DNA of 64,000 nt, taken from the NCBI RefSeq assembly GCF_029855045.1, contig NZ_CP123228.1, positions 3,906,001 through 3,970,000 on the forward strand, in the 5' to 3' direction. The position numbers were made by a program, and so were the translations under genes. How positions within the stretch are numbered: position 1 is the first letter of the stretch; each line of letters starts with the position of its first letter. This stretch comes from Piscinibacter sp. XHJ-5. GTDB taxonomy: Bacteria > Pseudomonadota > Gammaproteobacteria > Burkholderiales > Burkholderiaceae_C. Under the pieces are notes generated by a model. The model was not told the DNA's origin and made no database searches. It saw only the letters and a list, made by a program, of their open reading frames with translations. Positions 43,749 through 47,150 of the stretch are shown here, one piece after another.

Positions 43749-44399
43749 ATGGTCGACTTCTCCATCTGGGACATCGCCCGCAACCTGCTGCTGGCCGCAC
43801 GCTGGACCCTGCTGCTGTCGCTGATCGCGTTCGTCGGCGGCGGCATCGTCGGGCTCGCGCTGCTGGTCGCGCGCATCGCGAAGCTGCGCGGCGCCGAGAC
43901 GCTGGTGTCCGGCTACGTTCAGCTGTTCCAGGGCACGCCGCTGCTGATGCAGCTTTTCCTGGCCTATTTCGGCCTCGCACTGCTGGGCGTCAACGTGTCG
44001 GCGTGGACCGCGGCGGCGCTGGCGCTGACGCTGTACAGCAGCGCCTTTCTCACCGAGATCTGGCGCGGCTGCGTCGCGGCGGTGCCCAAGGGCCAGTGGG
44101 AAGCCTCGCAGGCGCTCGCGCTCAGCTTGCGCGAGCAACTGACCCACGTCATCGGCCCCCAGGCGCTGCGTGTGGCCGTGCCGCCGACGGTGGGCTTTCT
44201 CGTTCAGGTGGTCAAGGGCACCGCGCTGGCATCGGTGATCGGCTTCGTCGAGCTGACCAAGGCCGCCACGATGATCAGCAACGCGACCTTCCGGCCCTTC
44301 ACCGTCTACGCCTGCGTGGCGCTGATGTACTTCATGCTGTGCTGGCCGATCTCGGCATGCAGCCGCGGTCTTGAGAGGAGGCTGCATGCGCAGCGCTGA
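43749..44399 (+). CDS. Amino-acid ABC transporter permease (HisQ/M family), second
   Basis: A 216-residue permease homologous to the preceding one: LFQGTPLLMQLFLAYFG, the coupling loop GQWEASQALALSLREQLTHVIGPQALR, and five to six hydrophobic helices. It starts 3 nt after the first permease and its end overlaps the ATPase start by 14 nt. The two permeases presumably form the transmembrane heterodimer. Confidence 0.92.
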   Translation: MVDFSIWDIARNLLLAARWTLLLSLIAFVGGGIVGLALLVARIAKLRGAETLVSGYVQLFQGTPLLMQLFLAYFGLALLGVNVSAWTAAALALTLYSSAFLTEIWRGCVAAVPKGQWEASQALALSLREQLTHVIGPQALRVAVPPTVGFLVQVVKGTALASVIGFVELTKAATMISNATFRPFTVYACVALMYFMLCWPISACSRGLERRLHAQR

Positions 44400-45132
44400 C
44401 GGAGCCATCGTTCATATCCACGGCCTGCGCAAGCGCTTCGGCGACAACGAGGTGCTCAAGGGCATCGACCTCGCGGTCAAGCCCGGCGAGGTGATCGCCA
44501 TCATCGGCAAGAGCGGATCCGGCAAGAGCACGCTGCTTCGCTGCATCAACGGCCTGGAGACCTTCGACCAAGGCACGCTGAGCGTCGACGGCCAGCCGCT
44601 GCTGCACGGCAATGGCGCGGCGATGCGCACGCTGCGCCAGCACGTCGGGATGATCTTCCAGAGCTTCAACCTGTTTCCGCACCTCAGCGTCGGACGCAAC
44701 GTGATGCTGGCCCCGACGCTGGTCAAGAAGCGCCATTCGCCCGATGCGGTCGAGCAGGCGCGAGCGCTGCTGGCGCGCGTGGGCCTGGCCGACAAGTTCG
44801 ATGCGCGGCCGGACCAGCTCTCCGGCGGGCAGCAGCAGCGGGTGGCCATCGCCCGCGCCCTGGCGATGGAGCCGGCCGTGCTGCTGTGCGACGAGATCAC
44901 CTCCGCGCTCGATCCCGAGCTGGTCGGCGAAGTGCTTCGCGTCGTGGAGTCGCTCGCCGAGGACGGCATGACGCTGCTGATGGTGACGCACGAGATGGGT
45001 TTCGCGCGCAAGGTGTCCGATCGGCTGGTGTTCATGCATGCGGGACGCATTCATGAGCAGGGGCCGCCGGACGTCCTGTTCGGACGGCCGCAGACGGCCG
45101 AGTTGCGGCAGTTCCTGGCGGCCGTGGGTTGA
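44386..45132 (+). CDS. Amino-acid ABC transporter ATP-binding protein (GlnQ/HisP family)
   Basis: A 248-residue ATPase powering the importer. Walker [11 protein letters not shown]-loop [12 protein letters not shown], signature [15 protein letters not shown], Walker [18 protein letters not shown]-loop [18 protein letters not shown] 44386 is chosen because GAGAGGAG is 5 nt upstream; a TTG at 44371 is in frame. Its stop lies 1 nt before the CTAG that bounds the palindromic element at 45134. Confidence 0.93.
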
Positions 45133-45133
45133 C

Positions 45134-45408
45134 CTAGTGTCGTGAGTTGGAAATACGTGGCGTTTCGATTCGACCAGATGGTGATGATCGGGCGGCTGCG
45201 CGAAGGGGCCAATACTGGACGTATTGGCCCCTTCGCGCAGGCGACCGAGGGCGCCATCTGGTCGAAGAACCGAAGGCGGGCCGAAACGGGGCGATCTCCG
45301 CGTTGCAGAGTCGGGTCCATACCCCCGGTATGGACCCGACTCCGCGCCTTGCGCTCATCCCCGTTTGGGCCCGTCGAAACGCCACGTATTTCCAACTCAC
45401 GACACTAG
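45134..45408. mobile_element. MITE-like non-autonomous element with 31-bp perfect terminal inverted repeats and nested internal palindromes
   Basis: Core 45138-45404 (267 bp), flanked on each side by CTAG (probable target duplication). Terminal repeats 45138-45168 and 45374-45404 are perfectly inverted over 31 bp, beginning TGTCGTGAGTTGG. Arm 1: TTCGACCAGATGG (45169-45181) pairs with 45254-45266, enclosing a perfect 20-bp hairpin (45196-45215 with 45221-45240, loop TGGAC). Arm 2: 45278-45291 pairs with 45359-45372 (13 of 14), enclosing a perfect 16-bp hairpin (45308-45323 with 45327-45342, loop CCC). No transposase is encoded. TGT ends and CTAG target resemble IS481-type elements, but the terminal sequence differs from the IS481 copy at 6182. 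It lies between convergent genes and has no T-run to act as a standard terminator. Confidence 0.8.
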
Positions 45409-47150
45409 CCTCCCTGCTCCGACCGCCTGCGCCGCTCCAGCATCTCCTGCACCTTGCGGCACTGCGGATGCCCCTGGAAGCGCGGCAGCCCGCATTGCTC
45501 TTCCATGCACAGGGCCAGCGCGATGAACACGCGCGAGCCGCAAGCCTGGCGCGGGGTCTGCGGCTCGCGCGCCGACGGCGGCGTGGCCACCGGCGCGGCG
45601 GCCACCGGCGAGCGAGCCGCCGGCTCGTTGCGCACCGGCATCGAAACGGCGGGACGCTCCACCGCCTGAGGGTCTTCTCGAGCCGCGATGTCCGTCGGCC
45701 GGGCGTGAGGCTTGATGACCGGCTTGGCGACGGGCGTGAAGCCGGACGGCGGCGGCACGAGGCGCACCGCGCCGGCCGCGGCCGGCCGGTCCAAGGACAG
45801 CGCAGCCTCGGTCGCCGGCGGCGCCACGACGGCGACCGAGGCGGCCGGCGCTGCCGCTTCGAGCGGTGCGCCCGCCTTGGCCGCGGCGGCCGGCGCCGGC
45901 TCCCGACTGCCCATCCACCATGCCGCAGCGGCAGCCACGGCGACCACCAGCGCAAAGCCGGCCATCAGCATGCCCAGACGCGAGCCCTCGGACGGCGCCT
46001 CGACGGTGGGCCGGCTCGGCATCACCGTCGGCACGTCGGTCCGGGACACCGGCGGGTGCGTGCGACGGGGCGTGGTGACGGGCGGCGGCGCCGTCATCGG
46101 CCGCGTGCGCTCCATGCCCCCCGCGTCGGCCACGGTGCGCTGGACCGGCTGTGTCTTCTCGAAGCCTACCGTGTCGTCATCGGCCGCCTGCGGTCGCTGC
46201 GGCACGGTGGCGCCGCCGCGGCTGCGCGGCGGCACGGCGGCGCGGCCGTCCAGCACCTGCCGCAGCGCCGCGATGTTCTGTGGCCGGTCGGCCGGCCGGA
46301 TGGCGAGCGCCCATTCCACCGCCGCGATGAACGACGGCGACATGTCGGGGTGCTCCGCGGGCACCAGCAGCGGCACATCGTCCTGCACGGCGCGCGCGGT
46401 GGCCGGCGGGGGCGGTGCGCCGCGCAGCAGGTAGTAGACGACGGCACCCAGCGCATACAGGTCGGTCCACGGCCCCTGCCGGAGCTGCACGACTTCGGCG
46501 TACTGCTCGATCGGCGCATAGCTCGGCTTGAGGATGGCCGTGAAGGTCTGCGTGCGGTCGCCGATGGCCCGGCGCGCCGCGCCGAAGTCGAGCAGCACCG
46601 GCAGCTCGCCGGGCGGCAGCAGGATGTTGTCCGGCGCGATGTCGCGATGGAAGACGTCCTCGCGGTGAAGCTGGTCGAGCGCATCGAGCAGCGGGTTGAC
46701 CACCGAGCGGATCCAGCTTTCGGACGGCGGCGCCGACATCGAGCGGCGCACCTCGCGCAGCGTGCGTCCCTGCAGGTACGGCATCACCATGTAGGCCGTG
46801 CCGTTCTCCTCCCAGAAGCGGTACACCTTGACCAGCGAGGGATGGTTGAAGCGCGCCAGCAGCCGCGCCTCGTTGACGAAGGAGCGAAGGCCCAGCGCGT
46901 AGGTCTCGGTGTGCGCGCCGGAGCGGATGGACACCATGAGTCCCTTGCCGCGGCCGGCGAGGGAGCTGGGCATGTACTCCTTCAGCGCGACCTGCCGCTC
47001 GAGCGCATGGTCCTGCGCGAGGTAGACGATGCCGAAGCCACCGACGCCCAGCACGCGCAGGACCTCGAGCTCTCCGAAGCGTGTTCCCGCCGGCAGCGCA
47101 TCGTGCTCGTCCATCGGAGGGGGCGCAGTGTCGGGCGGAGTCGGGGCCAT
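45405..47150 (-). CDS. Transmembrane Ser/Thr protein kinase with C-terminal four-cysteine tail
   Basis: A 581-residue Hanks-type kinase. Catalytic domain about 25-300: glycine loop GVGGFGIVY, Lys57 in VALKEYMP, catalytic loop HRDIAPDNIL (Asp170, Asn175), DFG 188-190. The usual HRDxKP Lys is replaced by Ala. A Pro/Thr/Arg-rich linker leads to one transmembrane helix (392-413), then an Ala/Pro-rich stretch and a tail with Cys537, Cys548, Cys553 and Cys564 (C-x10-C-x4-C-x10-C), expected in the periplasm. Its TAG stop is part of the CTAG bounding the palindromic element. It lies 90 bp downstream of the PAS hybrid kinase gene on the same strand. Confidence 0.9.
   Translation of the reverse strand: MAPTPPDTAPPPMDEHDALPAGTRFGELEVLRVLGVGGFGIVYLAQDHALERQVALKEYMPSSLAGRGKGLMVSIRSGAHTETYALGLRSFVNEARLLARFNHPSLVKVYRFWEENGTAYMVMPYLQGRTLREVRRSMSAPPSESWIRSVVNPLLDALDQLHREDVFHRDIAPDNILLPPGELPVLLDFGAARRAIGDRTQTFTAILKPSYAPIEQYAEVVQLRQGPWTDLYALGAVVYYLLRGAPPPPATARAVQDDVPLLVPAEHPDMSPSFIAAVEWALAIRPADRPQNIAALRQVLDGRAAVPPRSRGGATVPQRPQAADDDTVGFEKTQPVQRTVADAGGMERTRPMTAPPPVTTPRRTHPPVSRTDVPTVMPSRPTVEAPSEGSRLGMLMAGFALVVAVAAAAAWWMGSREPAPAAAAKAGAPLEAAAPAASVAVVAPPATEAALSLDRPAAAGAVRLVPPPSGFTPVAKPVIKPHARPTDIAAREDPQAVERPAVSMPVRNEPAARSPVAAAPVATPPSAREPQTPRQACGSRVFIALALCMEEQCGLPRFQGHPQCRKVQEMLERRRRSEQGG

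Follow-up and report, generated by a model that had tools for sequence, protein, structure and literature searches.

The window analyzed here is a stretch of 64,000 nucleotides from Piscinibacter sp. XHJ-5, and coordinates refer to it unless the host genome is named. Positions 45137–45405 were found to hold a palindromic element of 269 bp that is intergenic and apparently non-coding, and the genes on either side, for an ABC transporter component and a protein kinase, converge on it. The features of the locus are as follows.

44371..45132, plus strand: gene for an ABC transporter ATP-binding protein (PF00005, 130.5 bits); its stop codon is separated from the left TA by 2 bp
45134..45136, no strand: left target site, C-TA; the TA, part of a CTAG, is read as the duplicated dinucleotide
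45137..45168, plus strand: left terminal inverted repeat, 32 bp, beginning GTGTCGTGAGTTGGAAATACG, in perfect pairing with 45374–45405
45169..45266, minus strand: arm A, with an outer stem of 13 bp, an asymmetric internal loop, and a 20-bp apical hairpin
45267..45276, no strand: linker GAACCGAAGG, 10 nt, the counterpart of a CCCTTCGGG mini-hairpin in relatives
45277..45373, plus strand: arm B, with an outer stem, an internal loop, and a 16-bp apical hairpin
45300..45306, plus strand: conserved motif GCGTTGC on the 5′ side of the internal loop of arm B
45344..45352, plus strand: conserved motif GCGCCTTGC on the 3′ side of the same loop, 37 nt after GCGTTGC
45374..45405, minus strand: right terminal inverted repeat, 32 bp
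45406..45408, no strand: right target site, TA-G
45405..47150, minus strand: protein kinase gene (PF00069, 102.2 bits)

The two-layered arms described in the initial annotation were recovered from the sequence. In arm A, the outer stem of 13 bp is formed by 45169–45181 and 45254–45266 and the inner stem of 20 bp by 45196–45215 and 45221–45240; in arm B, the outer stem (45277–45291/45359–45373) contains one mismatch and the inner stem of 16 bp pairs 45308–45323 with 45327–45342. The stems of the palindrome are thus as first described, and the termini, which had been put at 31 bp, are perfect over 32 bp, or over 35 bp when the flanking CTA is included. The proposed folding check was run, and the result lies far beyond shuffled sequences. 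The RNA fold of the element reaches −216 kcal/mol, shuffled sequences averaging −107 (z = −21), the DNA fold has a z of −23.7, and in neither case was the value equaled in 200 shuffles (0/200 each), which rules out a chance origin of the folds. Long open frames cross the interior, as is usual at this GC content, and the copy lengths of 266, 268, and 269 bp argue against a coding interior. An Rfam search of 44800–45800 returned 7 matches, all below the gathering threshold, and none exceeded that threshold in 20 loci.

The host genome, a single contig of 6,648,202 bases, was searched by BLAST and by terminus, and 13 copies were found at different sites. The BLAST-type check proposed earlier therefore returned dispersed copies and not a single one. 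Seven of these are near full length (L001–L007) and six are deletion derivatives, L008 with a net loss of about 46 bp and L009–L012 and L047 shorter still. Copies L009 and L010 have one common deletion of 93 bp that removes arm B, and they lie at different sites. It is most likely that the one-armed form moved too; alternatively, the same deletion occurred twice, between short repeats. If both descend from one deleted copy, half of the core was dispensable for transposition, and the core is then not needed for moving. The host also contains at least two further terminus classes with the same arm motif, listed here by host coordinate.

400587, 1849196, and 2677273: L188, L190, and L191, respectively, each with one arm and termini GTGGCCTGTAACGG
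1346589–1346751: L189, with two arms and termini GGGCATGTTAACG

The transposase that mobilizes the element, left open in the initial annotation together with a search for full-length insertion sequences, is likely of the IS630 family. The exact 23-base terminus was found in three stretches of the contig database (Rubrivivax, Nevskiales, and a Burkholderiaceae MAG), and a terminus within 2 mismatches of 22 bases was found in 7 of 399 genomes of the family, among them the host. One of these 7 genomes encodes a 369-residue transposase between matching ends (L059; NF033545, 263.8 bits against a cutoff of 100), and another carries a transposase inside an element that runs to the contig end (L064; NF033545, 146.7 bits against the same cutoff of 100). 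An annotated IS630 element on a plasmid of Acidovorax carolinensis (L242) has CTAGTGTCGTGAGTTAGAAGTTCG at both ends. When counted by eye, the outer 21 bases of the terminus were identical at 18 of 21 positions with L242, at 18 of 21 with L064, and with L059 at 19 of 21 for the right end and 15 of 21 for the left. Together with the many dispersed copies, these common termini bear out the earlier MITE reading, and we regard it as nearly certain that the element is a non-autonomous MITE mobilized by a transposase of the IS630 type. Its mobility is well supported by the dispersed copies and by the ends shared with insertion sequences.

In the host genome itself, PF13358 had no match, and the L059 protein aligned by tblastn at two places over short stretches of 76 and 40 residues; these weak matches were set aside. 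Neither search thus revealed an intact IS630 gene there. The mobilizer has been lost from the host, lies outside it, or is too different to see. Present mobility is doubtful on this account. The 23-base terminus had no match in viral contigs, and the whole element from the window had none in plasmids.

A C before the left end and a G after the right end were found in 12 of 12 host copies inspected, and 11 of the 13 copies have TA on both sides, the exceptions being L006, with GA on the right, and L047, with TG on the left. The CTAG noted earlier at both ends more likely reflects target choice by an IS630-type element that duplicates 2 bp, TA, which we take to be the habit of this family, than the 4-bp duplication first proposed; TA would then be the target duplication. 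One of the one-armed copies (L010, near host position 2257128) lies exactly at the CTAG that ends the remnant of a GTTAAC-type element (L231), which fits CTAG as the target. For 5 of 7 prepared sites, the two flanks were joined and compared with 4 relatives of the genus, and this empty-site check, also proposed earlier, yielded no orthologous empty site; the sole alignment through a junction was that of a paralogous gene junction (L228), too distant to count.

Insertion at CTAG tends to rebuild stop codons, and the kinase stop codon TAG (45405–45407) consists of the terminal base of the element and the right TA. For 7 host copies (L001, L002, L005, L006, L007, L009, and L012), the TAG at the boundary terminates a flanking frame whose codon GC pattern is gene-like, a count from which L003, L004, L008, L010, and L011 were left out for frames with atypical patterns and L047 for having no frame.

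A model of arm B, denoted R1, was built from 4 sequences and is of low information. It scores arm B at 98.5 bits, its own sequence being in the model, and arm A at 45.9 bits on the minus strand. When the host's order was searched (Burkholderiales, to judge from named relatives), R1 matched 35 of 399 genomes at E ≤ 0.01, and the loci listed from it, host copies aside, were mostly other repeats with the same plan, namely an outer stem, a middle stem, and an apical hairpin, with GCGTTGC and GCGCCTTGC as nearly invariant words, in an arm of about 97 nt with the words mostly 36–37 nt apart. Arm B of the element in the window has this pattern with a spacing of 37, arm A is without the canonical words, and the element as a whole is built on the two-arm plan, with inverted arms, a linker, and a total of about 265–269 bp. 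The exact pattern GCGTTGC-N35-38-GCGCCTTGC was found in 72 of 369 genomes of the host's class (GTDB Gammaproteobacteria, again judged from named relatives) at up to 47 places per genome. The reversed pattern, used as a control, gave 8 matches in the 369 genomes (counted from the list of matches), against dozens in each of several genomes for the forward one. Genomes G1151, G984, G1132, G1065, G999, and G872 contain 26–47 exact arm motifs each. The spacing of the words was counted in 87 distinct instances, using exact words and allowing 15–60 nt, with many of the loci prefetched at 35–38 nt and others by the arm model or by termini; it is 36–37 in 68 instances, 35–39 in 85, and 16 and 41 once each.

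When 78 loci were scanned with the arm model, 74 were matched, and 34 of the 74 have a second match within 60 nt. The order of the arms is minus/plus in 32 of the 34 paired loci, several of which are copies from one genome. The remaining 40 loci have one match, some of them being one-armed and others having a second arm that scores under the threshold. Between the arms, the linker is mostly CCCTTCGGG-like and 6–39 nt long; in two loci of a Rubrivivax MAG (L055 and L089), it measures 38–39 nt and contains an extra short hairpin sequence (GGGGCCTTCGGCCCC in L089). One locus inspected by eye for a three-arm form (L156) looks truncated. An unannotated two-arm element (L241) was also found on a plasmid of Comamonas odontotermitis (NZ_CP083452.1, 53952–54217), where it follows an organic hydroperoxide resistance gene at a distance of about 20 bp; there are 3 such places in that plasmid.

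Some of this likeness could in principle come from convergence or chance among GC-rich hairpins seen through a structure-heavy model. R1 was indeed made from 4 sequences with little information, and some single exact-motif matches, such as L168, L177, and L185, pair poorly and are clearly due to chance. The near-invariant words at nearly fixed spacing, the 8 matches of the reversed pattern against 72 of 369 genomes for the forward one, and the equal lengths of the elements described below make this explanation highly improbable. We consider it very probable that a structured core is shared across these genomes.

Inverted ends with a duplication were found for 59 distinct elements, the duplication being TA in 40 and TNA in 19. 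Spans of 140–330 bp were allowed, a G was required as the first base, the loci were chosen by their arm matches, and 9 of the 59 are from the host. The length is 265–268 bp in 38 of the 59, with two arms, and 158–163 bp in 8, with one arm; the other 13 measure 182–282 bp, among them L137 and L143 (276 bp), which read long with their ends set 4 bp too far out. The two size classes differ by one arm plus linker. These elements fall into about 18 terminus classes, some of them alike (a 19th reflects misread ends), and three of the classes agree with the ends of real transposons, which belong to two families, IS630 and IS5. The class GAGCCTGTTCACGATCTTC agrees at 18 of 19 bases with the ends of L238, an IS5-family element on a plasmid of Xanthomonas campestris with TTA duplications, and the class GGGCCTGTTAAC is as on one end of L239, an IS5-family element on a plasmid of Polaromonas sp. 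JS666. L238 is annotated as two reading frames. IS630 genes (PF13358) were detected in 3 of 10 genomes that carry other terminus classes; for those without such a gene today, IS630 may still have acted in the past, as the host illustrates. Judged from the matching ends of the three classes, at least two transposase families have provided ends for the core module.

The copies from MAGs have the same arms in other letters, with the Nevskiales copy cut by the contig end. With 4 sequences for each arm, changes on both sides that keep the pair were found at 14 of 40 predicted pairs in arm A and at 12 of 40 in arm B. A set of 8 dissimilar arms of equal length was then taken from arms in which 11 or more of the 14 outer pairs form, after near-duplicates had been removed from 16 arms of that geometry; 93.1% of its cells are paired, and 27 of 36 pairs changed on both sides. 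Its covariation score is 0.576, compared with 0.191 in shuffles (0 of 500 as high), and slid structures gave 4–10 pairs. The preselection on outer pairing favors the outer helix in this set, and in inner helices 3 and 4, where nothing was selected, 11 of 13 pairs changed on both sides. The motif helix is almost invariant, with no change at 5 of its 7 pairs. A nearly fixed motif within covarying stems is the pattern of a fold with a recognized internal loop.

Pairing of each arm with its own partner was also compared with swapped partners. With free offsets, at least 10 of 12 outer pairs formed in 13 of 19 dissimilar exact-motif arms with their own partner and in 1 of 342 foreign combinations; the 6 arms that fell short are L164, L165, L168, L175, L177, and L185. 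With fixed offsets, the result was mixed because offsets differ between subfamilies, the mean being 7.0 of 14 pairs for own partners and 4.4 for swapped ones, with at least 11 pairs in 12 of 44 and 0 of 1892, respectively. RNAalifold kept only 12 pairs in a MAFFT alignment of 46 arms, where the stems are not in register. All of these arms are mutually related, and the counts lack phylogenetic independence.

The fold has thus been kept through compensatory changes, in agreement with the initial suggestion that the internal palindromes are more than a by-product. The opposite reading is that of an ordinary MITE with an inert interior, whose hairpins are by-products of DNA strand switching that keeps palindromes and changes both sides together. 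Template switching is able to mimic covariation, and the termini with half of the core seem to be enough for transposition (L009 and L010). Such repair should, however, erase imperfect internal loops, and yet the internal loops are the most conserved part. An inert interior would also leave the length of 265–268 bp in 38 of 59 elements across about 18 terminus classes, the retention of the same core across transposase families, and the strand bias of the mismatches (below) to be accounted for. For these reasons, we regard an inert interior as unlikely.

If one strand acts as RNA, then that strand would be expected to tolerate G-U pairs and not A-C mismatches. On the GCGTTGC strand, the outer stems of 50 dissimilar arms contain 6 G-T and 24 A-C mismatches (binomial p = 0.0014); in a looser non-redundant set of 71 arms, the numbers are 16 and 29, a weaker contrast, and the outer stems of both sets had been preselected for pairing. 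The middle stem gave 2 G-T and 14 A-C mismatches in 42 arms, its register being uncertain. The excess of A-C on the GCGTTGC strand would make the complementary strand the working one, if RNA is involved. That strand folds better in 43 of the 50 arms and still in 40 of 50 with the wobbles removed, so most of its folding advantage is due to loops. With the arms in minus/plus order, the first arm reached by an RNA polymerase is in the working orientation, whichever side it comes from.

The strand bias is suggestive of RNA. Protein binding, hairpins at replication forks, and an RNA structure had been listed as equal options, and the mismatches tilt this choice toward the last of them. Action of the core at the level of RNA is a serious possibility that falls a little short of what we would call probable. 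The competing idea, that the arms act as single-stranded DNA or cruciforms, for example as binding sites for a protein of the host, at the replication fork, or when a transpososome assembles, draws on the symmetry of an element with inverted arms, on the DNA fold (z = −23.7), and on the structure kept by covariation. Tolerance of G-U on one strand is expected for RNA and counts against it, as do the one-armed elements that seem to move, and we judge action as DNA to be quite improbable.

On balance, and with moderate confidence, our reading is that of a MITE with a structured core whose arms probably form RNA hairpins at the 3′ ends of genes. An IS630 transposase acting in trans would recognize the termini of 30-odd bp and insert the element at the TA of CTAG. 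The interior would be a widespread structured module and not debris of an insertion sequence, consisting of two inverted arms of about 97 nt with a short hairpin between them. Whichever side transcription enters from, the transcript would first run into an arm in the G-U-tolerant orientation and fold it into a long, imperfect duplex at the gene's 3′ end, which may serve as a signal for processing by an RNase III-type enzyme and for stability. CTAG often supplies a stop codon, so insertions at gene ends would do little harm, and the element might pay for itself.

MITEs of the IS630 family are known, for example RUP of Streptococcus pneumoniae. The element described here resembles them in its IS630 termini, probable TA target, apparent lack of a transposase gene, and many copies, and differs in its two-arm module, which also occurs between ends of the IS5 type, and in a length that is mostly 265–268 bp. 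ERIC, YPAL, and REP/BIME are intergenic palindromes able to act in mRNA; their termini or mobilizers are other than those of the element in the window.

As judged by motif, the Correia elements of Neisseria (CREE/NEMIS) are the closest described relative, and they too are short repeats that do not move autonomously, often lie at TA, and give RNA hairpins. A 19-base Correia word was matched in 4 of 399 genomes, all of one genus, at up to 72 places. Of 12 CREE-like copies that were fetched (L243–L254), 9 are 107 bp long and the others 109 and 111 bp, with one having outer ends taken. These copies contain GGCGTTGCCTCGCCTTGCC and GTCTGCGGC...GTCGCCTTG, which resemble the arm motif; the two arm words stand side by side, and there is another stretch resembling GTCTGCGGC..GTCGCCTTG, an arrangement that would fit loss of the apical hairpin from the arms. 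Their termini are TATAGTGGATTAA, whereas those of the element in the window begin with GTGTCGTGAGTT, and they have neither a 36-nt apical hairpin between the motif words nor an inverted pair of full arms. PMC2649163 gives CCGGTACGG and TCAGGACAA as Correia core words and reports that RNase III can bind the RNA hairpins of CREE and either cleave or protect them. Neither word is present on either strand of the element in the window. Identification of the element as a Correia element was rejected, since termini and core words differ; Correia elements may be reduced relatives of the two-arm superfamily.

QMITE1 and QMITE2 of Coxiella burnetii have transcripts that fold strongly and give small RNAs, according to the part of PMC5896051 that was available; by the description there, they are set apart by other lengths and duplications. 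The available part of a review (PMC10969869) describes MITE transcripts as stable stem-loops, and nothing on a shared core was found in it. In titles and the openings of abstracts, a search outside of which lie most subscription papers and ISfinder, no core shared across transposase families was found.

We tentatively advance a broader proposal, which is somewhat more doubtful than an action of the core as RNA. The two-arm core may be a structured RNA of ancient origin that is mobile but tied to no single transposase and has been taken up repeatedly by the ends of IS630, IS5, and perhaps other elements across the Gammaproteobacteria (in the GTDB sense). Length and fold would be held because the transcript serves the element or its host, for example by marking the 3′ ends of mRNA for processing.

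MITEs are usually read as shrunken transposons with irrelevant interiors. Here, the interior is conserved and the ends change. The near-constant motif and geometry, with swappable ends, provide a simple handle for annotation in other genomes. If the proposal is true, it would define a class of mobile structured elements that are otherwise filed as many unrelated MITEs, and it would make testable the existence of non-autonomous elements held together by the function of their own RNA.
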